Shown here piece by piece: positions 2,995 through 45,484 of a stretch of 64,000 nt of DNA (its first letter is position 1; every line of letters starts with the position of its first letter). Both the position numbers and the translations under genes were made by a program. Source of the DNA: Bacteroidota bacterium. GTDB taxonomy: Bacteria; Bacteroidota; Rhodothermia; Rhodothermales; Bin80. The DNA is taken from NCBI GenBank assembly GCA_028875125.1, contig JAPPGC010000095.1, positions 1-64,000 on the forward strand. Direction: 5' to 3'. Below the pieces are notes generated by a model. The model searched no databases. It saw only the letters and a list, made by a program, of their open reading frames with translations, and was not told the DNA's origin.

Positions 2995-3922
2995 TCGAGA
3001 GTGCCTCAACGATCGTATCAATATTGTAGCCGATCATATCCAGGTACGTGGATGCTGGTGTGGAGGGCCCGCCCAGCGCATCACCGTACAGCGTGCCACC
3101 GATACGGACATCAAAGCCCTTGGCCCTTACCGCTTCCTGAACGGCTACAATGCCACGTGGAGAAACTGACGACTCTATGAACATCGCAGGAATCCGCCGT
3201 TTAGTTACAAGTGCTGCCAGGTTCTGTACATCCGCCGCACCCGCTTCAGATGCAGTGGAGATTCCCTGAAGCCCACGAACCTCAAACCCATACGCAGCCC
3301 CGAAGTAACCGAACGCATCGTGAGAGGTTACGAGTACTCTCTGCTCCTTGGGGACCTTATCAGCTTTCTCACGCACGTAATCGTGTACGTCTAGAAGTTT
3401 GTCCGCGTAAGCATCTCCTCGTGCTACAAACGTAGCTTCACGTGTAGCATCCAGAGCGCCGAGGGCATCGGCGAGTGCACGTGCAGCACGAGCCCACAGC
3501 TCAGCGTCAAACCAGATATGTGGGTCATAATTACCTTGAAAAAGCTCCGAAGCCCGTAATAAACTATCTGGAACACTGACTTCAGCGATTGCGATGGTAG
3601 GCTTCCCACGTTCAGCCATCGCCTCAAACAGATCCCCCATTTTACCCTCAAGATGTAGACCATTATAAACCACGATATCAGACTCGACCATTTTACTGAC
3701 ATCGCGGGCACTGGCCTTATATAGATGCGGATCAACCCCAGGCCCCATCAGCGATTCAACACTTACCTCCGTCCCACCAACTGCACGTACCAGATCCGCA
3801 ACGATGCTTGTGGTCGCCACGACCCTGATCGCACGGTCCCCAAGTGGAGGAGCCTCCTCTTCTGCTGACGCGCAAGACATCAGCAGACCAAGCACCATGA
3901 TACATAGGGCAGCCGAGCGCAT
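2978..3922 (-). CDS. Metal ABC transporter substrate-binding lipoprotein (TroA/ZnuA/PsaA family)
   Basis: This 314-residue protein captures the metal ion outside the inner membrane and hands it to the permeases. The N-terminus is a lipoprotein signal with lipobox LLMSC. Candidate metal ligands are the histidines in [16 protein letters not shown] and YDPHIWFD, plus a late acidic residue; the DPHxW motif is typical of cluster A-I binding proteins. It is the first gene of a four-gene leftward operon and sits 13 nt downstream of a DtxR-like palindrome. The subfamily cannot separate Mn from Zn or Fe. It lacks the long His-rich loop of many ZnuA proteins, which mildly favours Mn or Fe. Confidence 0.9.
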
Positions 3923-6502: not shown

Positions 6503-8364
6503 AGACGCCTGAATTGTGGATTAGCCCCGTCAAGCTGGATGAGACGCTGCGCATAAATGCGTGCATCTTCCAGACGATTTGTATTGTAGTACAGCGAGGC
6601 CAGGTTTGCTATGGCCATGACTATATCTGGATCCAGTGCAATTGCCGCCTTGAAGTCCTCCTCAGCCCTCTCAAAATCTCTGTTGAGCACATGTGCGTAG
6701 CCACGATTATTGTAGACCTCCGCCTGCTTGGGATTGCGTTCTAGTGCTTCATCAAACGTGGCGAGTGCCGCAGACACCTGCCCGGCATTGCTATACGCAA
6801 CCCCAAGCCGAACCATAAAGCGCAAATGCTCTGGCGCGAGCTGCAGCGCCTGCTCCAGGTATGTAATTGCAGACTCTGGAGTTTCCTGCATCAAGTAAGC
6901 CTCCCCAATACGATAAGCCGTCCAGGCATCAGATATACTCTCCTCCATATTGCGTGCAATTCGCAGCACGCTGGTTGCCTCACCCTTCAGGAAGTGCATT
7001 CTGATCAATTGAATATCTACATTTTCTCCAGCACGATCAGCGCGTCGCAGATATACTGCCGCGGAATCCAGGAAGCCCGGGGCATTGGTTATCGTTTCGT
7101 AATAGGTCAGGAATCCCGCGGCAATTTCGGCATCACTTGGGGATTTATCGATCAGGCTTGCCATACGCACAAAGTCTGCCTGAGCTTCCGAGCTAACAAC
7201 CTCCAAGACGTCAGAGCCGGGAGACCGAATAAAGTGATCCGTAATCGTGATATGCGGAATATCCTGTGAGCCAGATACGGGCATATGGCAACTTGTACAG
7301 TCCGCTCCTGCGGCGGCCTCTGGTGTTGGACAGACCAAACTGCTCTCGTTTCCCGTGTGACAAGACTGACAAACATCCCGGTAATGATCCTCTGCCATAG
7401 CCTCAATCGGGACATGCGGGTCATGGCAGGTGATACAGGTCATGGCCTCCGAAGCCTGAAAACACGCGCTCTGGCTTAACCGATCAGGATGAGAGGCCAT
7501 AACGAACTGGTGCAAACTGTCTGCGTAGCGCGGCCAGAAAACGTTCTCAATGTCCGAAAGCGGCATTCCCGGCCTGAAGTCTGCAAATGTGCGCCCAGGT
7601 TTGTTAACCGAAGCCCCTTGAAGATGGCATCCCTGACAAATGTCAAACTGTTGCTCAACAGACAGCCTGGCCGGGTTCACTATGGTATAGTCTGCTTCCA
7701 GGCTGGTGTTGACAGCGTTACCACTGGTCACCGATTCGATGTGCAGCGAACCGGGTCCGTGACAACGCTCACAGTCAATTCCGTGTGGAACGGAAACATA
7801 CCTGTTCTCCGAACCCTCCACATACGCTGGCATGGCATTGTGGCAGGCCATACACTTGAGCGGAATCGGTCGGTCAAATCGGTTATTATTCGGCCCCTTA
7901 AAACCTGGTGGAAGATCCCATTTACCCTCCTGTACATACCACGTCAAGGGCATCTGGTATAGATAACCGTTCACATTCATGATATGTGAATTCGTGTGAT
8001 GACCGCTACCTACGATATAATCTATTTGCTCCACCCGCTTGTGCACCGTATCCTGTCCGCTCAGCCGGTACTCGACTACATAAAGTTCTCCTCCTTTCCG
8101 AAGGGCCTCGTAGTAGAGATCATTGAAATCATCGTAAACAGGTGTGGGATTGTCAAAATCAGCCTTGCTGTTAATCGGTCGGGCAAGCTCCCAGGACCGC
8201 CCCATTTGCGATTGTGTAAATGTGGCAGCTTTATCCGGGTGACAGTTCGCACAAGCATCTATACCAACGTAGTCAGCACTCAGGTTCTGAAACGGACTCG
8301 GCGGCCGCCGCTCGCAGGCTACAAAAACGAGCAGAGGCACCAAAGCGATGATGGCATGCTTCAT
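6484..8364 (-). CDS. Heptaheme cytochrome c lipoprotein with TPR repeats (A)
   Basis: This 626-residue protein has seven CxxCH heme-binding motifs in its N-terminal ~370 residues (CANCH, CMACH, CERCH, CQGCH, CITCH, CQSCH, CTSCH), resembling the cytochrome c554/doubled-CXXCH group. From about residue 470 come tetratricopeptide repeats, for example AYSNAGQVSAALATFDEALE. The signal peptide ends in the lipobox VFVAC, so it is probably a periplasm-facing or surface lipoprotein. It follows a paralogue with a 4-nt ATGA overlap and precedes the T9SS zincin. Likely an electron-transfer or reductase component with a protein-docking tail; the substrate cannot be named. Confidence 0.85.
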   Translation of the reverse strand: MKHAIIALVPLLVFVACERRPPSPFQNLSADYVGIDACANCHPDKAATFTQSQMGRSWELARPINSKADFDNPTPVYDDFNDLYYEALRKGGELYVVEYRLSGQDTVHKRVEQIDYIVGSGHHTNSHIMNVNGYLYQMPLTWYVQEGKWDLPPGFKGPNNNRFDRPIPLKCMACHNAMPAYVEGSENRYVSVPHGIDCERCHGPGSLHIESVTSGNAVNTSLEADYTIVNPARLSVEQQFDICQGCHLQGASVNKPGRTFADFRPGMPLSDIENVFWPRYADSLHQFVMASHPDRLSQSACFQASEAMTCITCHDPHVPIEAMAEDHYRDVCQSCHTGNESSLVCPTPEAAAGADCTSCHMPVSGSQDIPHITITDHFIRSPGSDVLEVVSSEAQADFVRMASLIDKSPSDAEIAAGFLTYYETITNAPGFLDSAAVYLRRADRAGENVDIQLIRMHFLKGEATSVLRIARNMEESISDAWTAYRIGEAYLMQETPESAITYLEQALQLAPEHLRFMVRLGVAYSNAGQVSAALATFDEALERNPKQAEVYNNRGYAHVLNRDFERAEEDFKAAIALDPDIVMAIANLASLYYNTNRLEDARIYAQRLIQLDGANPQFRRLWELVR

Positions 8365-32290: not shown

Positions 32291-33088
32291 CTACTCCAAT
32301 TCGCTTTGTGGCATCGCACGGATAGCCCCAATGGATACTCCCCCGTCGACAAGGTAGGTTTGGCCCGTGACATAACGACTGGATTCAGACGCTAGAAAAA
32401 CTACCATACCGTCCAAGTCATCCGGTCGGCCTGGTCGGGCCATTGGTATCCGTTCCTTGAGCATAGAGAGCCAAGTCTCGTCTTCGTAAAGCATCCTGCT
32501 TTGCTCTGTCTTGAACCAGCCCGGAGCCAGACAATTGACCGTGATTCCGTATTCGGCCCAGTCATGGGCCAACGACATCGTAAGCTGCTTGATACCACCC
32601 CGGCTTGCGCAATAGGGCCCCATCCCTGCATAACCCGCAACACAAGTCACTGACCCAATATTAATCACCCGTCCCCAATGCTGCGCCTTCATGATACGCG
32701 CCGCGGCCTGTGCCACAAAAAAAGCACCTCGGAGATTTGTATTGACCACCTTGTCCCAATCCTCCGCAGTGACCTCCAAGGCACGGCGGCGGACGTTACA
32801 ACCAGCGTTGTTCACCAATACATCCAATCTTCCAAAATGCGCTTCCACATCTTGGACGGCTGACTGAATTCTGGACAGATTCAGAACATCCAGTTCCACT
32901 GAAAGTACTCGACCTCCGATGTCCAGAATATCTTCTGCGGTTTCCGCAAGTCTCGCTTGATCACGACTTGTGATCGCGATATCAGCCCCGGCCCGCGCCA
33001 AAGCCTTCGCCATGTACTGGCCCAGTCCACGACTGGCACCGGTAACCAGTGCAACCCGTCCAGAAAGATCAAAAAGTTGCTGTAACAT
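32291..33088 (-). CDS. SDR-family oxidoreductase (gluconate 5-dehydrogenase-like)
   Basis: This 265-residue SDR has TGASRGLG, NNAGC, the Ser in INIGSVTC, YCASRGGIK with the YxxxK position replaced as Y-C-A-S-R, and VTGQTYLVDGG at the end. Arg at the catalytic Lys position is notable (Y-x-x-x-R), so activity may be altered, although nearby K could serve. It resembles gluconate 5-dehydrogenase/2-deoxygluconate dehydrogenase proteins. It is not in an operon and is divergent from the Cache lipoprotein. Confidence 0.82.
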   Translation of the reverse strand: MLQQLFDLSGRVALVTGASRGLGQYMAKALARAGADIAITSRDQARLAETAEDILDIGGRVLSVELDVLNLSRIQSAVQDVEAHFGRLDVLVNNAGCNVRRRALEVTAEDWDKVVNTNLRGAFFVAQAAARIMKAQHWGRVINIGSVTCVAGYAGMGPYCASRGGIKQLTMSLAHDWAEYGITVNCLAPGWFKTEQSRMLYEDETWLSMLKERIPMARPGRPDDLDGMVVFLASESSRYVTGQTYLVDGGVSIGAIRAMPQSELE

Positions 33089-33147
33089 CGGAAACAACCG
33101 TTATTTCTGGGAATTATATGCGTCATTTCATAAATGATTCCCAAACT

Positions 33148-36826: not shown

Positions 36827-38179
36827 ATGACTCCCATCCTGATTCTATTGCTCGGAATCATCATTGTCGTAGGCTTGATTGTAGGCCTGCGAATCAATGC
36901 ATTTGTCGCGCTTATTGCCGCGGCCATCGTGATCAGTATTCTTTCCCCCGGAGAATGGTCAACCAAGATTACACGCGTGGCCACCGCTTTTGGAACAACT
37001 GCAGGAAGCATTGGCATCGTGATTGCCATGGCAGCAATGATTGGCGTAACCATGATGAACAGTGGTGCGGCCGACCGTGTCGTTCAGGCCTTTATTCGTT
37101 TACTGGGACAGGAGCGGGGCAGTCCTGCCCTAGCAGCCAGCGGTTTCATGCTGTCGATTCCAGTATTCTTTGATACGGTATTCTACTTGCTGATTCCCCT
37201 CGCCCGCTCACTGTTTACACAGACCAAGCGAAATTATCTCACATATGTCGTCGCAATCGCCGCCGGAGCAGCAGCTACACATGCACTGGTACCTCCTACA
37301 CCAGGGCCGTTGATTATCGCCGAAAACCTGAGTGTGGACTTGGGTACCATGATTTTGGTGGGAATCACTGTGGCACTGCCGGCCGCAATCCTGGGATTGC
37401 TGTATGCTGGCTGGCTGAATCGAAGAATGACCGTCCCCATGCGAGACGTTCCGGGGGTAGATACCGATGCAACTGTGCTTGACCAGCTTCCTGGCTTAGG
37501 CTTCTCTGTACTGCCCATTGTTCTCCCAATATTCCTGATTGCGGGCAAAACGGTCTTTCTCCCACTCCTGGATAACGACACGATTCTCGCTCGCTGGATC
37601 ATCGTACTGGGTGACCCAAATATGGCGCTACTCTTAGCAGCGGCGGTATCTACGGCAGTGTATATCCAAATGCGACGACCCTCGCGAGAAAATCTTGGCA
37701 AACTGATTGAGCAGTCACTGATGAGCGGTGGACTCATCATTCTCATCACCGCCGCAGGCGGGACGTTCGGTGCCATGCTTAAAGAAGCCCAAATTGGACC
37801 CGCAATCAGCGATCTGTTTGCCGGCGCCTCGGGAACATCGGGGCTGGGGATGCTCATACTCGGTTTTGGTATTGCCAGTCTGCTCAAATTTGCCCAGGGA
37901 TCGTCAGCAGTCGCAATGATCACGGCCTCAGCTATGCTGGCGGCGATGATCACACCCGAACAAGATCTTGGATTCAATGTGGTATATCTGGGGACCGCCA
38001 TTGGCGCAGGCTCACTGGTTGGATCCTGGATGAATGACAGTGGATTCTGGATATACTCAAAAATGAGCGGCCTGACCGAGGTAGAGACACTCAAGTCTTG
38101 GTCAGCGCTGCTAGTCATTCTGGGGATTTCTGCAGGCTTGATGTCCGTGATCTTATCACTTCTTCTCCCTCTCACATAG
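36827..38179 (+). CDS. GntP-family gluconate/sugar-acid permease
   Basis: This 450-residue inner-membrane protein has about 12-14 hydrophobic segments and GntP-family features: ALVPPTPGPLIIAENL, SLLKFAQGSSAVAMITASAM and GAGSLVGSWMNDSGFW. Family members are proton symporters for gluconate and related sugar acids. It starts 5 nt after the FAH-family gene and is followed 6 nt later by the dehydratase, so it is in the same operon and most likely imports the sugar acid the cluster degrades. The antisense 376-residue ORF is a shadow. Confidence 0.92.
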   Translation: MTPILILLLGIIIVVGLIVGLRINAFVALIAAAIVISILSPGEWSTKITRVATAFGTTAGSIGIVIAMAAMIGVTMMNSGAADRVVQAFIRLLGQERGSPALAASGFMLSIPVFFDTVFYLLIPLARSLFTQTKRNYLTYVVAIAAGAAATHALVPPTPGPLIIAENLSVDLGTMILVGITVALPAAILGLLYAGWLNRRMTVPMRDVPGVDTDATVLDQLPGLGFSVLPIVLPIFLIAGKTVFLPLLDNDTILARWIIVLGDPNMALLLAAAVSTAVYIQMRRPSRENLGKLIEQSLMSGGLIILITAAGGTFGAMLKEAQIGPAISDLFAGASGTSGLGMLILGFGIASLLKFAQGSSAVAMITASAMLAAMITPEQDLGFNVVYLGTAIGAGSLVGSWMNDSGFWIYSKMSGLTEVETLKSWSALLVILGISAGLMSVILSLLLPLT

Positions 38180-38185
38180 TAAAAA

Positions 38186-39865
38186 ATGAACCGGTACAGT
38201 AGGCAGGTGACACAAAACCCTCTGCAAAGTGGCGCGCGCGCCATGCTGCACGCCGTCGGCCTGACAGAAAAAGATCTTGAAAAACCACAGGTTGGCATCG
38301 TGAGCATGGGCTGGGAAGGAAACCCATGCAACATGCACCTCAATGACTTGGCAAAGAGCATCAAGAGCAGCGTTCAGACACAGGATCTGGTTGGTCTGAT
38401 CTACCACACGATTGGGGTAAGCGACGGTATATCCATGGGCTCTTCGGGTATGCGTTTCTCGCTTCCTTCTCGCGATCTCATAGCTGAATCTATTGAGACG
38501 GTCGCGTCAGCTCAATGGTATGATGCCGTGATAGCCGTTGCAGGTTGTGATAAAAATATGCCCGGATCCATCATGGCATTGGCGAGACTCAATCGCCCCG
38601 GGCTCATGGTGTACGGCGGCACAATCAAGCCTGGATGCTGGAATGGAAAACCGATTGATATTATATCCGCATTTGAAGCGGCTGGCCAACGCGCGACCGG
38701 ATCCATAACCGATAAGGATTTTCGGGAAATTGCCCGTCACGCTTGCCCGGGCGCCGGCGCCTGCGGGGGCATGTATACGGCGAACACGATGGCTTCTGCC
38801 ATAGAAGCCCTGGGGATGACAGTGCCTTTTGACTCGTCATACCCTGCAGTCAGCGACGAAAAACAGGCAGAAACAGGGCAAATAGGTGAGGTGATTTATC
38901 AGCTCCTGGAAAAGGACCTCAAACCAAAAGATATTCTCACCCGCGAAGCATTCGAAAATGCTCTGCGCGTGGTCATTGTGCTTGGGGGATCAACTAACGC
39001 TGCCCTTCACCTAATTGCCATGGCCAGGGCTGCCCAAGTGCCGCTGACTCTGAACGACTTTCAGACGATGAGCAATAAAACTCCCCTTCTTGGTGATCTG
39101 AAACCCAGCGGGCGTTTTGTAATGGAAGATCTCTATAACGTGGGGGGAGTCCCCGCTGTGATGAAGATGCTCCTTGAAAATGATCTGCTGCACGGCAGCT
39201 GCATGACCATCACTGGTCGTACGGTGGAAGAAAATTTGGCAGAAGTGCCCGCCCTGACAGCAGGACAGGAAGTGATAAAACCACTTGATCAACCTGTAAA
39301 AACGACCGGGCACCTGCAGATTCTCTACGGAAATTTGGCCACAGAAGGGGCCGTCGCTAAAATTACAGGTAAGGAAGGAGATCGGTTCGACGGATCTGCA
39401 CGTGTGTTTGATACGGAAGAAGAAGCTATGGAAGCTATTCTCGGAGGAAAAATCAAAACCGGAGATGTGCTCGTCCTACGCTACTGCGGCCCCAAAGGAG
39501 GACCCGGTATGCCCGAAATGCTCCGCCCAACCAGTGCAATCGTGGGTGCTGGTCTGGGGGACAAAGTCGCGCTAATCACCGATGGTCGCTTCTCAGGCGC
39601 TACACATGGGTTCGTGGTCGGTCATATTACACCTGAGGCACAGGTTGGCGGCATGATCGCGCTGGTGGAAGATGGGGATCCCATTACCATTGACACGGTC
39701 AACCGTGTCCTGACACTTGGAGTCAGTGAGCCAGTATTGAATGCGAGACGAGAGAGTTGGTCAGCCCCGCCGCTTAAAGCGGATGCCGGTGTACTCCTAC
39801 GGTATGCGCGAACCGTGTCCTCGGCCAGTGACGGATGTATTACTGACGCGGCCTCCGCAACTTGA
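38186..39865 (+). CDS. IlvD/Edd-family dehydratase
   Basis: This 559-residue protein belongs to the dihydroxy-acid/sugar-acid dehydratases. Three cysteine sites expected for the Fe-S cluster are present: [16 protein letters not shown] and [16 protein letters not shown]; the C-terminal block [14 protein letters not shown] is also standard. Length fits dihydroxy-acid dehydratase (IlvD, branched-chain amino acids). However, the neighbours (GntP permease, FAH hydrolase, SDR, sugar alcohol dehydrogenase) and absence of other ilv genes favour a sugar-acid dehydratase making a 2-keto-3-deoxy acid. Sequence alone does not decide between them. Confidence 0.88.
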
Positions 39866-39868
39866 TCT

Positions 39869-40867
39869 ATGCGTGCGCTTGTTTATAAGGGAGCATTCCA
39901 GATTGACCTGCAACAGGTACCTGATCCGCGGCCGCTTCCCCACGAAGTGCTTGTACGAATAGACGCTGTTGGTATTTGTGGGTCTGATGTACATGGATAC
40001 ACAGGAACAACCGGGCGTCGTCTTCCCCCACTTATTATGGGGCATGAGGCGGCTGGGCGAGTCGCAGAACCCGCCAATGGATTTGAAGCAGGCGAAGAAG
40101 TTTGCTTTGACTCTACTGTTGGATGCACCGAGTGCTCCGAATGTGCTTCCGGCCAGGTGAACCGCTGCACCAAACGAACGGTGTTCGGTGTGAGCACGCC
40201 TCGTTTTAGACGTGATGGTGCGATGGCAGATTTCGTTTGTGTGCCCGCCCATGTGCTCAGGCGCGTACCCGACGGGCTGCCGCTCAATATTGCGGCCATG
40301 TTTGAGCCACTCTCGGTTGGCTCGCACGCAGTACGCAGAGGCGGCAATGCCCAAAACGCCCGGGTTCTGATTATTGGCGCAGGAATGATCGGCCTGAGCA
40401 TCCTACTTTGTGTGCAATTGCAGGAGCCGAGCGAAATCATTGTCATTGAGCCCCATGAGAATCGAAAAGCAATGGCACGTCAGATTGGCGCTGACCGCGT
40501 GCTTGATCCCGAGAACAGTGCACAGACCATTGATGCGGATCTCACTTTTGAGGCAGTAGGGGCTAGCTCAACCGTTGCCCAAGCCATCCATCATACTAAG
40601 CCAGGCGGGAGAATTGTGCTTGTTGGAAATACCTCTCAACACCCTCCGGTTGATGTTCAACGTATTGTCGCGAAGGAGTTGACCCTGACCGGGACTTACG
40701 CAAATGCGGGGGAATACGACGAAATCATTAACCTCGTATCCCGACAACAACTGGATCCCTCCCCGCTAATTAGCACAACACTGCCGCTTGAGGATGGACC
40801 CGAAGCCTTTGACCGATTATACAGACAGGCGGAGCCGGAATGGATTAAGGTGCTCCTGCATACCTGA
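39869..40867 (+). CDS. Zinc-dependent alcohol (sugar) dehydrogenase
   Basis: This 332-residue MDR-type dehydrogenase has the catalytic zinc ligands in AVGICGSDVHGY and MGHEAAGRV, the structural-zinc cysteines in TVGCTECSECASGQVNRCTK, and the Rossmann motif VLIIGAGMIGLS. It resembles sorbitol/threonine dehydrogenases. It begins 3 nt after the dehydratase and is the last gene of the rightward sugar-acid run. Its 3' end is echoed by a diverged copy at about 42596-42625. A role in oxidising the entering sugar or alcohol is likely. Confidence 0.9.
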   Translation: MRALVYKGAFQIDLQQVPDPRPLPHEVLVRIDAVGICGSDVHGYTGTTGRRLPPLIMGHEAAGRVAEPANGFEAGEEVCFDSTVGCTECSECASGQVNRCTKRTVFGVSTPRFRRDGAMADFVCVPAHVLRRVPDGLPLNIAAMFEPLSVGSHAVRRGGNAQNARVLIIGAGMIGLSILLCVQLQEPSEIIVIEPHENRKAMARQIGADRVLDPENSAQTIDADLTFEAVGASSTVAQAIHHTKPGGRIVLVGNTSQHPPVDVQRIVAKELTLTGTYANAGEYDEIINLVSRQQLDPSPLISTTLPLEDGPEAFDRLYRQAEPEWIKVLLHT

Positions 40868-41087
40868 GCATAATGGTCTACGGAGACTCCCATGATGGAT
40901 GTGTCGGGGAGCCTTGCCCTGAGCTCACCTATGAGGTCATTCTCTGCGCCCCCAGTACTGACCAAAGAGAGCCCAACCCGGTGCTTCATTCAACAAACAT
41001 TACTAGGATAATTCTTCGTCACTGGGAAGGATTGGAAAGAAAGATGCATTCACGCTTTTGGCCGCACGATAGTCATCGAATGCATCT
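40835..41087 (+). repeat. Dehydrogenase-HAD junction repeat, copy A
   Basis: This direct repeat aligns with 42596-42850 over ~250 bp, including the 3' end of the dehydrogenase gene (CCGGAATGGAT, then CTCCTGCATACCTGAG) and continuing into the 3' end of the HAD gene. In copy A the dehydrogenase part is intact and the HAD part is broken; in copy B the reverse holds. Identity by eye is about 70-80% with indels. Confidence 0.75.
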
Positions 41088-41140
41088 TAACATCAGTGCT
41101 CGCCCTGCTGATCCGATGTATACCAGCACGGACCGCCCAG
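40878..41140 (-). pseudogene. Relic of the HAD phosphatase 3' end
   Basis: Leftward frames here reproduce the end of the intact HAD gene at 42639-43514 with frameshifts and stops: DAFDDYRAAKSVNA after stops where the intact gene has DAFGDYRAAQSVNA, then ENDLIGELRARLP against EDDLIGELSARLP, then PTHPSWESP-stop against PKHPHWESQ-stop. Weaker resemblance may continue to about 41300. It is not functional. Confidence 0.8.
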
Positions 41141-41299
41141 ATGATATTCCCGTAACCCTATCAGCGCGCCAGCATTGCCCAAACCCATAATTCGGAAACC
41201 GCCATTGAGCATCAACTCAATGAAAGCAGTCCGGTTACCCGCCAAGTATTTAACGTAGCCGTTTGATTGGGTCGAATGGTGGTGGATCACCACCCGGGA

Positions 41300-41594
41300 A
41301 ACACTCGATCAGGTTTCACGCAACGGTCTCCCGGACTGGAATTATCCTTGCCGACTACGCTCGGGGCATCAGTTCATCCCGCGAGTAATAGTGGTACTAC
41401 AGCAAGATTTTTATGATGTGATATAATCCCCTTGGTGGCTAAGCCAACGGTATCTGTGCGATAATCCCATATAGCATAGCCCTTCTCCTACTATCTGTCG
41501 TGCGTGCTTCTCGTTTGTCCCGTGCGAATGAAGATTACATGGTATTGTACTGCTTACCGTCACCTTCACGGTACATAACCATGTTGGCGGCTGC
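41300..41594. other. Intergenic, no gene seen
   Basis: This low-complexity-free stretch lies between the HAD relic and the retropepsin gene. It contains the hexamer-rich text GATGTGATATAATCCCC but no open frame with family resemblance. Confidence 0.35.
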
Positions 41595-42059
41595 TTACCG
41601 CTCCCCTTCGGCTTGGCTTCGCCTTCTTATTACTACCCTCCCCGTATCCCCCTCGTATATCAAAACGAACCAACGCAGTATATCGCGCCCAATTAGGAAT
41701 TCGTGCGGGAAGCTGCTTCTCGCCAGTGGGAGTCCGGCGAGATGCATTATTCTCACACAGGATAGTCCTGATATATCAATGAGGGCAGCATAGTAATTCG
41801 TTTGCTGCGGTCCGTGAACCCCATTCACTGTTTGCGTGTCGCAAATCTCTAATTCGAGCTTCTTCGCTAAGTCTATATCAATGCAACTCTTGTCAGCTCC
41901 AGTGTCCACCAAGGCGTCACAAGGCCCACTCTTTCGCTCTGCTGGGGCAACCCTACCAACCTGCTCAACCCTAATCGATAGCGTCGGGCCACTAAGCTCT
42001 AACTCGTCTTGCCCAGTACGATAGTAGTCACTATCAAAGCCGCACTCAACCTCAAGCAT
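41595..42059 (-). CDS. Retropepsin-like (clan AA) aspartic protease
   Basis: The 154-residue protein has one half of a pepsin fold, as in retroviral proteases: the active-site triad ALVDTGADKSCID near residue 50 (Asp-Thr-Gly) and the second conserved block FLIGRDIL near residue 120 (hydrophobic-Gly-Arg-Asp). Such single-domain proteins act as dimers. No signal peptide or membrane helix is seen, so it is probably cytoplasmic. The upstream DUF5678 gene overlaps it by 8 nt. The pair sits between two copies of a duplicated junction, which points to insertion. Target unknown. Confidence 0.8.
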   Translation of the reverse strand: MLEVECGFDSDYYRTGQDELELSGPTLSIRVEQVGRVAPAERKSGPCDALVDTGADKSCIDIDLAKKLELEICDTQTVNGVHGPQQTNYYAALIDISGLSCVRIMHLAGLPLARSSFPHEFLIGRDILRWFVLIYEGDTGRVVIRRRSQAEGER

Positions 42060-42288
42060 GAAGGCTCGCGAACCGAACGCTGGCAGGAACGCCTTTCTGG
42101 CCTACCTTACGTATCAGACAGGGTCTAATCTTCCGCTTTTCGTACGCATCATTAACCGCAAGAGCGAAGGTGTCGTATGCCCCTACTAATTTCCGGTCGT
42201 GAAAAACGACCCATTTGCCCATAAAATCGCGCTCCAGTTCGGGCTGCATATCGTTAAAGACCTCAATTTCCCTGTTGAGTGTCTCCAT
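42052..42288 (-). CDS. DUF5678-like small protein, partner of the retropepsin
   Basis: The 78-residue protein from METLNREIEVF resembles DUF5678: a short helix, then GKWVVFHDRKLVGAYDTF, a helical AVNDAYEKRKIRPCLIRKVG segment, and a tail. The ORF track starts 14 residues earlier, but the Met before ETLNRE is the better start. It overlaps the retropepsin gene by 8 nt. Small proteins of this kind adjacent to clan-AA proteases recur in other bacteria as I recall; their function is not known. A regulator or substrate of the protease is possible. Confidence 0.7.
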   Translation of the reverse strand: METLNREIEVFNDMQPELERDFMGKWVVFHDRKLVGAYDTFALAVNDAYEKRKIRPCLIRKVGQKGVPASVRFASLHA

Positions 42289-42638
42289 TACGACACCTCT
42301 TGGATCATGTTTGCAGGTTGATGTACGCAAGATGTCCCTAAGAGTTCTTCGTAGCTTCGTGGTATCCGCACGGCAAATCGCAGGAAAAGACCTATTCCAC
42401 GTGAGAGATTATCGTTCGGATACAGCCAACCTGCTAAGCAGATAGAGTAGGTGGGTTAGTTCCGTTCATTTCAAGGAAACATTCAGAAACAGATAAACTC
42501 CTGACACGGTGAAGAATAATGGCAAGGGCATCGTGACGGCCGGAACATACTTTTGAGTTGGCTCGGTGCTATTGAACTTCCTACTATGCCAGAAACCGGA
42601 ATGGATCCAGATACTCCTGCATACCTGAGATTTTTGGG
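42289..42638. other. Intergenic containing the start of junction copy B
   Basis: It holds no gene. From 42596 it is a diverged copy of the dehydrogenase 3' end (CCGGAATGGAT, CTCCTGCATACCTGAG). It should also contain the promoter of the DUF5678-retropepsin pair, which I could not locate. Confidence 0.4.
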
Positions 42639-42850
42639 CTACTGCGACTCCCAGTGTGGATGCTTCGGGAGTCTTGCGCTGAGCTCACCTATTAGGTCAT
42701 CCTCGTACGCTCCCCGATACCGACCAAGAAGAAACCGATCCAGCGCTTCATTGAAAAACCGCTCCCAGGACGATTCTTCGTCACCTGGAAGGATAGGAAA
42801 GAAACATGCATTAACACTTTGGGCCGCACGATAGTCACCGAATGCATCTC
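42596..42850 (+). repeat. Dehydrogenase-HAD junction repeat, copy B
   Basis: This is the partner of the repeat at 40835-41087. Here the HAD part (42639 onward) is the intact gene's 3' end and the dehydrogenase part is only a fragment. The two copies bracket the retropepsin/DUF5678 pair, about 1.5 kb apart. Confidence 0.75.
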
Positions 42851-43514
42851 CAATCATGAGCATTTGTTCAGGAGCGTACTGACTTGCGGCAGCGGTAGAT
42901 AACTGGTACGATTTAGGGCCCATTTCCTGGCCCGCAATCAACCCGACATAGCCCGAAAGTCCATGTTCACTCCATTCCCGTCGCAATGCCTCTACCGGTG
43001 TACTGGAAGCTACCATCATATCCGCGTGTTCGGCCGCCCGAGCCAGTGAATCGTGTACATATGGGAATGGAGGAACCCCGTGCACCATCTCAGTCACCGC
43101 TTCATTAACGGCCTCGCTCCAAAGCAGGGCGTCTGCCAGCGCCTCGTTGCCTACGGCCGCATTTGCGAGAGCGGGGTTGCCCAGTTTGGGTTTTGATTTG
43201 ATCCAGTCTTGGAGCGCTTCCAAAACTGGCACCGACACGTTGCGACGCAAAACTTCAGGCCGTTTACGCAACTGATCCATTACTTCCACCAGTGCAGGGA
43301 AGCGATTCATGCCCCGATGTACGGAATAAAGGTTCACAAACTCCCAGGATTGTCTGGCGAATTTACTGACAGCCTGTAAGCCATAATGGCGGATCGTCAC
43401 CGGGCAGAAGCATTCCTTGTGCTTGATTTCCATCGTATCAAACACACAGCCATCGGAGTCAATGGCAATAAAAAAGTCCTTTTCTCTCTGAGGAGCTGAC
43501 AATGATTGACCCAT
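42639..43514 (-). CDS. HAD-superfamily phosphatase
   Basis: The 291-residue protein has motif I AIDSDGCVFDTM (D-x-D), motif II in VASSTPVEALR, a likely Lys in QEMGPKSYQL, and motif IV MIGDAFGDYRAA. A large helical cap lies between residues 30 and 170. It is the last gene of a leftward three-gene set with the TIM-barrel isomerase (60 nt upstream) and the AroE-like dehydrogenase. It may dephosphorylate a sugar phosphate made by that set; the substrate is unknown. Its 3' end is duplicated as a relic at 40878-41140. Confidence 0.82.
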   Translation of the reverse strand: MGQSLSAPQREKDFFIAIDSDGCVFDTMEIKHKECFCPVTIRHYGLQAVSKFARQSWEFVNLYSVHRGMNRFPALVEVMDQLRKRPEVLRRNVSVPVLEALQDWIKSKPKLGNPALANAAVGNEALADALLWSEAVNEAVTEMVHGVPPFPYVHDSLARAAEHADMMVASSTPVEALRREWSEHGLSGYVGLIAGQEMGPKSYQLSTAAASQYAPEQMLMIGDAFGDYRAAQSVNACFFPILPGDEESSWERFFNEALDRFLLGRYRGAYEDDLIGELSARLPKHPHWESQ

Positions 43515-43574
43515 CTCGGATACGTAATTCGGGCCAGTTGAACGTACATCAACGACCCTGGATACACCGCCGCC

Positions 43575-44513
43575 CTACCGAAGGAAGGGTATAAACTGAC
43601 GCAAATAGGTGCTGCTCTGCATTAAGGCACACTTCCGCAGTTCCAGCGATCCTTCGTAGGCACGATCCTCTACCTCAACACAGACAGCTCCACTATATCC
43701 TACATCCGTGAGCAACGAAAAAAACTTCCCCCAATTCACATCTCCCAATCCAGGCAGCTTGGGGGTATGGTAGGAGTTGGGAGTTGCCATGATACCGACT
43801 TCGTCCAGACGATCTTGATCCAGTCGAACATCCTTTGCGTGAATGTGAAAGAGTCGATCCGAAAAATTTCGTATGGGTCTCAGGTAATCCATATGCTGCC
43901 AAATCATATGGGAGGGATCGTAGTTGAGTCCAATGGATGAACTCCCTAGGTCAGTAAAGAGTCGACGCCAAATGGCTGGTGTATGGGCAATGTTTTTGCC
44001 TGCGGGCCATTCGTCATCCGTAAAGTACATCGGACAGTTTTCGATCCCTATTCGAACCCCCCTCTCCTCAGCAAAATCTACAATGGGCTTCCATACCTCC
44101 AGTAAACGCGGCCAGTTGTCATCAACCGAGCGGTTCCAATCACGACCAATAAATGTGTTCACTGTATCCAGTTCAAGCACTGTTGCCGCCTCAATCATGC
44201 GTAGAATATGCGTGATATATACCTCTCCTTCTTCAATATCTGGGCACAATGGGTTGGGATAGTATCCCAATGCACTGATTGAACATCCATGGTCATCTGC
44301 CAACTCCCGCAATTCCCGGGCCTTCGCCGAATTCATTGATCTCACATCTACATGCGTAACCCCGGCATAGCGGCGTGTGGCTTTTCCCAGCGGCCAACAC
44401 ATAAGCTCTACGCAGTCGTAGGAAAACTGTGAAGCCCAATCAAAAAGATCTTTCACCGAACATTCGGGAAGTATGGCACTGACGAATCCTAGTTGTAAGT
44501 TGTTTGCATTCAT
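43575..44513 (-). CDS. Sugar phosphate isomerase/epimerase (TIM barrel, AP-endonuclease-2 fold)
   Basis: The 312-residue protein has the xylose-isomerase-like barrel with metal ligands typical of the family: GIENCPMYF, then [12 protein letters not shown], then HIHAKDV, and CVEVED near the end. The starting segment [17 protein letters not shown] is the common N-terminal strand and helix. Members isomerise or epimerise sugars such as hydroxypyruvate, inosose or tagatose. It is 47 nt downstream of the AroE-like gene and 60 nt upstream of the HAD gene on the same strand, so a shared pathway is likely. Confidence 0.85.
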
Positions 44514-44560
44514 GTCCGAATTTACAAGTTAGAGTAAGCCACAAGTTAAGCCGAACGCCG

Positions 44561-45484
44561 TTAGCGATGCGTAACTTTGCAAAACGCGTTGAGTCGCTCA
44601 TTTGTCATGGGGATATCAAATACGAGTCCCATCACACTTGACCAACCACGTATAAAATAATCCCAGCCATCAACCACCTTAATGGGGCGAGTCGCTTGTT
44701 GCAACTGCCCACTGACCAGGAATTCGCGTGGGCCACGATAGTTTAGATCCCACACCACTGTATGATCCGGGAAGTATACGTTATCGGTCACAGGAGATCC
44801 AGGAAGATCTTTACCCATTCCGGTAGCATTAATCACTAGAGAGTATGTGGGCAGCTTAGCCACCAGGGAATCACAAACCGCGGGGTCACTTGTATGAAAG
44901 AATTCCAGCTTGACTGCTCCTGAGTCTATGCGACTAGTGATATTTTTGCAGTGATGCAGATTGTCTGAACGCTTTTCCACAATCTGTAGGAAGGCAGGTT
45001 TATCTATGGCCTGCTTCAACAAATAAACTATGAGAGCGACGGTGGCTCCCCCTCCCCCAAGCGACAGGATCCCTGCCCCTTCATGTTTTGCCCACCAATC
45101 ATTAGATAGAACCTGTGTTATTGCCAGCCCATAGTTCTCGGGGTCAACCGCGTGCCCCCACAGTTCATCTCCGCGTTTATAAAGTGCAGAAACCTCTCCT
45201 GTCAATTCCGAAGCCGGTGTGCGCCGGTCAATGAGATCATCGGCTGCCCGTACAATCGCTAGTTTGTGTGAAGTAACGAGAGCACCCCGAATTTCTCGAT
45301 CCTTCTTCAGGCGCAGGACCGCTTCACGATGCGCATCAAGTGTTCCGTCAATGGGTAAATTCACGCCGCGCAACTCCGCGCCCCGAACACCAAGCGCCCG
45401 GGTCCAATCGGGAAAATACTGTGCAGACAACGAATCCTCGGTCCTGACGCCGAAGAATTCCATTATTTTTCTGCCTTCCTCCAT
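44561..45484 (-). CDS. Shikimate dehydrogenase-like (AroE-fold) oxidoreductase
   Basis: The 307-residue protein shows the AroE plan: substrate domain with GALVTSHKLAIV (where AroE has NVTxPHK, so the invariant Lys is kept and the Asn-Val-Thr differs), then Rossmann motif ILSLGGGGATVAL, then VINATGMG and WDLNYRG, and the closing GWDYFIRGWSSVMGLVF. The substrate-contacting residues differ enough that shikimate is not certain. It is first in the leftward operon with the isomerase and HAD phosphatase, and diverges from a sulfatase with 39 nt between starts. I infer action on a sugar-derived or cyclitol-like acid. Confidence 0.8.
   Translation of the reverse strand: MEEGRKIMEFFGVRTEDSLSAQYFPDWTRALGVRGAELRGVNLPIDGTLDAHREAVLRLKKDREIRGALVTSHKLAIVRAADDLIDRRTPASELTGEVSALYKRGDELWGHAVDPENYGLAITQVLSNDWWAKHEGAGILSLGGGGATVALIVYLLKQAIDKPAFLQIVEKRSDNLHHCKNITSRIDSGAVKLEFFHTSDPAVCDSLVAKLPTYSLVINATGMGKDLPGSPVTDNVYFPDHTVVWDLNYRGPREFLVSGQLQQATRPIKVVDGWDYFIRGWSSVMGLVFDIPMTNERLNAFCKVTHR

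Follow-up and report, generated by a model that had tools for sequence, protein, structure and literature searches.

That bacteria have gained genes through illegitimate recombination is usually concluded by elimination, nothing else being present. A microdiversity survey described bacterial variable segments flanked by direct repeats, which it put down to illegitimate recombination; 10–18% of the segments were repeat-flanked, and the flanking repeats were mostly (66–94%) shorter than 30 bp (PMC2884548). In homology-facilitated illegitimate recombination, known from Acinetobacter, Pseudomonas stutzeri and pneumococcus, there is homology at one end of the DNA and illegitimate joining at the other (PMC2884548, PMC3240628). 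In plants and animals, patch-mediated or fill-in repair of breaks makes tandem duplications, and the mammalian fill-in system relies on Ku-dependent end joining and operates without foreign filler (PMC7971508, PMC8355091). Here, we describe a locus at which a small gene module lies between two copies of one gene junction, and we consider it probable that a single ancient illegitimate insertion, which recopied about 270 bp of its target, produced this arrangement.

The window, that is, the whole stretch of DNA analysed, comprises 64,000 nucleotides of a 79-kb contig from genome G000, the genome of an uncultured marine bacterium. Sixteen genomes of the family were compared, including the relatives G004, G008 and G009; all genomes are MAGs, and the named close relatives are Rhodothermaceae/Rhodothermales MAGs. 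A sequence-only reading of the window had reported that about 250 bp occur twice, with one of two genes intact and the other a relic in each copy, and both observations held. Copy 1 (40835–41087) and copy 2 (42596–42850, aligned to 42849 or 42850) form a direct repeat with 79.6% identity over 255 bp (E = 1.1e-58 in a self-comparison), the sole such pair in the contig. Pairwise alignment of the copies placed their similarity far above chance: the local alignment scored 247, whereas 1000 dinucleotide-preserving shuffles averaged 17.6 and never exceeded 31.

Copy 1 contains the 3' end of an intact gene of the zinc-binding alcohol dehydrogenase family (39869–40867, plus strand; PF08240, E 9.8e-25; PF00107, E 1.2e-18), whose dN/dS between species is 0.10–0.19. 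The remainder of copy 1 is a relic of the 3' end of a HAD gene (40878–41087, minus strand), recognized by tblastn to HAD and interrupted by internal stops; the tblastn match, which is wider than the relic (40892–41173), contains three TGA, one TAG and two TAA codons. In copy 2 the situation is reversed. Of the dehydrogenase 3' end, only ~11 codons are left (42596–42628, plus strand), ending in ...CTCCTGCATACCTGA just as in copy 1, and they face the 3' end of an intact HAD-like hydrolase gene (42639–43514, minus strand; PF13419, E 2e-4, and PF00702, E 3.7e-4, both slightly below the cut-off). Orthologues of this hydrolase were found in 16/16 family genomes, with a dN/dS of ~0.1. Comparison with G008, G004 and G009 indicates that the ancestral duplication measured ~270 bp, its left edge lying 17–20 bp further left, near 40816–40818, and that the corresponding left edge of copy 2 (~20 bp) has been lost in G000. 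The bracketing genes belong to a larger group at 36827–45484 of the window, which includes a GntP permease, an IlvD/EDD dehydratase and a xylose-isomerase-like gene and resembles a family-wide conserved cluster for sugar-acid catabolism. Sulfatase-like genes adjoin this cluster.

Using the HAD protein as a query, we located the same locus in the relatives. In the sister species G009 (L024, 89% HAD identity), the dehydrogenase and HAD genes are convergent with 12 bp between their stop codons, and neither the module nor the repeat is present. The gene pair is likewise adjacent and without the module in G010, which belongs to a different genus of the family. Because G009 and a member of another genus are both empty, the empty state is ancestral. 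The module and the duplication are both present in G008 and G004, where the copies are 80.7% and 86.8% identical to each other; thus, both other module-bearing species have the duplication as well, and the refuting case named in the sequence-only reading, relatives with the module but unduplicated, did not arise. This distribution agrees with the earlier proposal that a duplication or recombination event put the module between once adjacent convergent genes, a proposal that we sharpen to foreign insertion with local duplication. The HAD part of both copies lies at a distance of 0.11–0.23 from G009, compared with 0.29–0.45 from the HAD genes of G007, G005 and G003, and because it is near the former and far from the latter, both flanking copies are native.

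The left part of the insert (41088–41410, plus strand) derives from the 3' end of a DUF1501 gene, T9SS sorting tail included, and has decayed; it was identified by its DNA identity to a G007 gene that matches Pfam PF07394 and PF18962. Over ~320 bp it is 75–76% identical to the G007 gene, 64% to that of G003, 53% to the intact orthologue in its own genome (at C49) and 51–56% to the orthologues of the sister species. Because it shares 75% with G007 but only 53% with its own genome's copy, this part is foreign and comes from a G007-like lineage. The cargo starts mid-gene, directly at the edge of copy 1, where four bases (ATCT) are common to the native and the donor-type sequence; a microhomology of 4 bp is a weak mark of the joining mechanism. 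Given that the DUF1501 scrap is retained in G000 only, we infer rather than observe that it arrived together with the retropepsin, and it may have entered at this edge only later. The T9SS sorting tail is heavily repeated in this genus, with 19–52 protein matches per genome, mostly to the tail, in ten genomes.

Of the module genes that the sequence-only reading had placed in the ~1.5 kb between the copies, the retropepsin stood, while the DUF5678 assignment was weakened to a resemblance. The full-length retropepsin-like aspartic protease gene (41595–42059, minus strand) scores 28 bits against PF00077 and 29 bits against PF13650, both above the cut-off, and its protein has both motifs, VDTGAD and FLIGRD (DTGAD, LIGRD); we assign it to the retropepsin family (Pfam RVP / Asp_protease_2) as a putative protease. 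No sequence relative was found in the PDB at E values up to 1. The second gene (42052–42330, minus strand) overlaps the retropepsin start by 8 bp and reaches 15.8 bits against PF18929, below the cut-off of 23.2, hence the name DUF5678-like. It is kept in G008 and G004 with a dN/dS of 0.32–0.82, and the literature on DUF5678 yielded one paper, which was uninformative. The right part of the insert (42331–42595) is noncoding in G000 and 87% and 79% identical to G008 and G004, and it joins copy 2 at the short shared stretch GAAAC(C/A)GGA(A/T)TGG. Pfam searches of the insert detected no recombinase, transposase, integrase, plasmid or phage gene, no inverted-repeat pair was found at the insert ends, and Rfam gave no RNA element or group II intron at 40000–43600. 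A defence-system reading was dropped, there being no match in PADLOC. The locus thus combines what identifies an illegitimate insertion, namely a single-copy empty site, a native duplicated segment with non-native left cargo, and the lack of conserved ends or a recombinase.

Silent changes, from which the sequence-only reading had suggested estimating the age, allow the event to be placed relative to speciation. HAD dS values are 0.36–0.38 among G000, G008 and G004 and 0.47–0.57 to G009. The HAD parts of the two copies differ by 0.215 (Jukes–Cantor ~0.25), and their distances to G009, 0.234 for copy 1 and 0.143 for copy 2, are as expected for a pseudogene versus a gene. Assuming that the gene copy evolves at roughly a third of the neutral rate, we estimate an age of ~0.19 neutral substitutions per site per lineage (error ~0.035, our own estimate). 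Because this value falls between half the dS among G000, G008 and G004 (0.18–0.19) and half the dS to G009 (0.23–0.28), it places the event at the radiation of the three species, before they diverged and later than the G009 split. In copy 1, G000 and G008 have in common six relic-specific changes and a 1-nt deletion, which argues for a single event. The trees are short and weakly supported, with 68–82% for the A0–A8 grouping, and copy 1 of G004 looks to have been partly converted by its copy 2.

The filled loci have since changed. In G008 and G004, a Sel1-repeat gene, absent from G000, lies between the DUF5678-like gene and copy 2. It has 15 repeats in G004, inside the insert (L023:1198–3102), and is far shorter in G008, suggesting rapid expansion of the repeats. 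Given that the insert of G000 joins copy 2 at a short shared stretch and that ~20 bp of the edge are missing, G000 probably lost the Sel1 gene by deletion; the right edge of the original insert was taken from G008 and G004. Both of these genomes carry a second copy of the Sel1 gene's 3' end on the far side of the module. Their retropepsin genes break off after DTGADKS and lack the second motif (G008 C93, L022:7182–7505; G004 C115, L023:3649–3834), although the DUF5678-like gene is still open. The retropepsin stump of G008 is followed by a small coiled-coil/transmembrane peptide. G004 also has a third partial junction copy (a''), joined to mid-retropepsin, which matches copy 2 including ~8–11 bp of insert-side sequence. 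Since a'' carries these insert-side bases, we rejected a second target duplication as the source of the nested X/X' repeats in G004 and G008, which are explained more simply by a later tandem duplication that ran from the middle of the retropepsin to a point 110 bp inside copy 2 and was followed by decay.

Under the origin that we propose, the ancestor shared by G000, G004 and G008 would, once the G009 lineage had branched off, have received a fragment of a relative's chromosome in the 12-bp gap. The cargo of this fragment would have consisted of the 3' end of the DUF1501/T9SS gene, the retropepsin and DUF5678 genes and probably the Sel1-repeat gene. While joining, ~270 bp of native target would have been copied twice, leaving each gene intact on its own side and as a relic on the other. 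The likeliest route may be template switching during replication repair, with exit at 41087, copying of foreign DNA and return ~270 bp upstream; alternatively, a break with long staggered ends may have been filled in on both sides before joining. Afterwards, the relics would have decayed, the Sel1 gene would have disappeared from G000, as would the left edge of its copy 2, and in G004 and G008 an internal tandem duplication and deletions would have halved the retropepsin. The enzymology, as well as the arrival of the whole insert at once, we infer; template switching or staggered-end fill-in is the simplest account, as unproven as its rivals.

The main rival is a Campbell-type insertion-duplication, in which a circle carrying the junction segment and the module integrates by one homologous crossover. 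Although this would yield exactly the anatomy seen, and method papers describe insertion-duplication as routine in the laboratory for competent bacteria, it requires a chimeric circle made of native junction and G007-like DNA, and in G007 there is no dehydrogenase gene beside HAD. The insert, moreover, is without plasmid or phage genes, and the DNA uptake channel ComEC was not found in the family, so we regard this route as unlikely. Searches with the family profiles of Ku (PF02735) and ComEC (PF03772) gave no match in the 16 draft MAGs of the family and were positive in control genomes, which weakens both Ku end joining and natural transformation. The absence of ComEC from this Rhodothermales family is unusual.

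An origin as a dedicated mobile retropepsin–DUF5678 module that inserts with long target duplications was suggested by the three nested repeats in G004/G008 and the repeats flanking a different retropepsin gene of G006, which looked like one reused mechanism. However, long repeats bracket only two of the ~13 retropepsin loci in the 16 family genomes, the inner repeat in G006 is a group II intron domain, the nested repeats fit later tandem duplication, and the insert starts within an unrelated gene without shared ends, making such a module highly improbable. More familiar elements were also rejected: a transposon or insertion sequence, as the insert has no transposase and no terminal inverted repeats and the duplication, at ~270 bp, is not short; a site-specific integrative element using a 3'-end att site, as there is no integrase in the insert and the duplication spans two genes; and a group II intron, which Rfam detected in G006 and not at 40000–43600. 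It is marginally less probable still that the gene pair was duplicated in tandem and then partly lost, with the module already present. Such duplications arise frequently, and the G004/G008 insert probably underwent one at a later time, but a module beside a single junction would interrupt the HAD or the dehydrogenase gene, which favours foreign insertion with local duplication; empty relatives show a 12-bp gap, and the second full gene left no remnant. An assembly or binning artefact might be suspected because every genome is a MAG, yet it is barely credible considering that the copies are ~20% different and that three MAGs, assembled separately in different projects, have the same structure.

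A comparable arrangement was found in G003 (L027:2638–3770) and G005 (L026:2553–3679), where a convergent junction between an AlbA_2-family gene and a short-chain dehydrogenase (SDR) gene is duplicated over ~175 bp (80–81% identity). Each copy again has one intact and one relic end, and the 0.8-kb insert carries a DUF1902-like small gene. No relative with exactly this pair in the empty state was found; an orthologue of the short-chain dehydrogenase lies in the window at ~32297–33097, and G000 has no close orthologue of the AlbA_2 gene. A pair of retropepsin and DUF5678-like genes in G006 (C32), located between two group II intron 3' domains (RF00029; L059:1545–1772 and 3424–3645) with RF01999 further on, was rejected as a parallel, as the inner repeat consists of group II intron RNA and the outer one corresponds to an ATPase 5' end, unlike a simple target duplication. 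Across the ~460 kb of G000 that we surveyed, simple bracketing pairs numbered only three: the dehydrogenase/HAD junction, a SpoIIE fragment (L070) and transposase-like fragments (C6). In the SpoIIE case (C9), an internal fragment of a SpoIIE/GAF phosphatase-like gene is repeated 1.7 kb upstream (L070:4849–4972 and 6524–6647). Insertion at a duplicated junction is therefore a genuine but infrequent phenomenon, and a pair of cases falls short of a system. We give little credence to the idea that this Rhodothermaceae genus has a recurrent Ku- and ComEC-independent route that puts small accessory modules into convergent junctions with native duplications of 175–270 bp and leaves the neighbours unharmed, the dehydrogenase/HAD and AlbA_2/SDR loci being two of its products.

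What this single locus offers is an empty site, a duplicated native target, a foreign cargo end, a readable chronology and decayed spare halves, all in one place, and it illustrates how an insertion can enter a 12-bp intergenic gap with both genes unharmed. It also provides a rule for finding such cases systematically, namely to look for inserts that have, on each side, one gene 3' end intact and another reduced to a relic.

Compared with described systems, the locus resembles the variable segments of the microdiversity survey (PMC2884548) in being a small segment present or absent between strains, with direct repeats and no known mobile element; it differs in its repeat, which is ~270 bp long, covers the ends of two genes and has existed for long enough that its spare halves have decayed. 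As in homology-facilitated illegitimate recombination, foreign DNA was joined without homology on at least one side, but here both sides carry a copy of the target, and the family genomes yielded no ComEC. With Campbell integration, as used in insertion-duplication mutagenesis, it shares foreign DNA between two direct native copies, whereas there is no vector here, no sign of a junction-bearing circle, and one end of the cargo falls within an unrelated gene. Patch-mediated or fill-in repair likewise doubles a target stretch at a staggered-end break, but that system is eukaryotic, and no Ku was found here. The dehydrogenase/HAD locus is, then, not a new system but a member of an ordinary and well-documented class, the repeat-flanked illegitimate insertion; what sets it apart is the unusual length of its duplication and the unusual completeness of its evidence.
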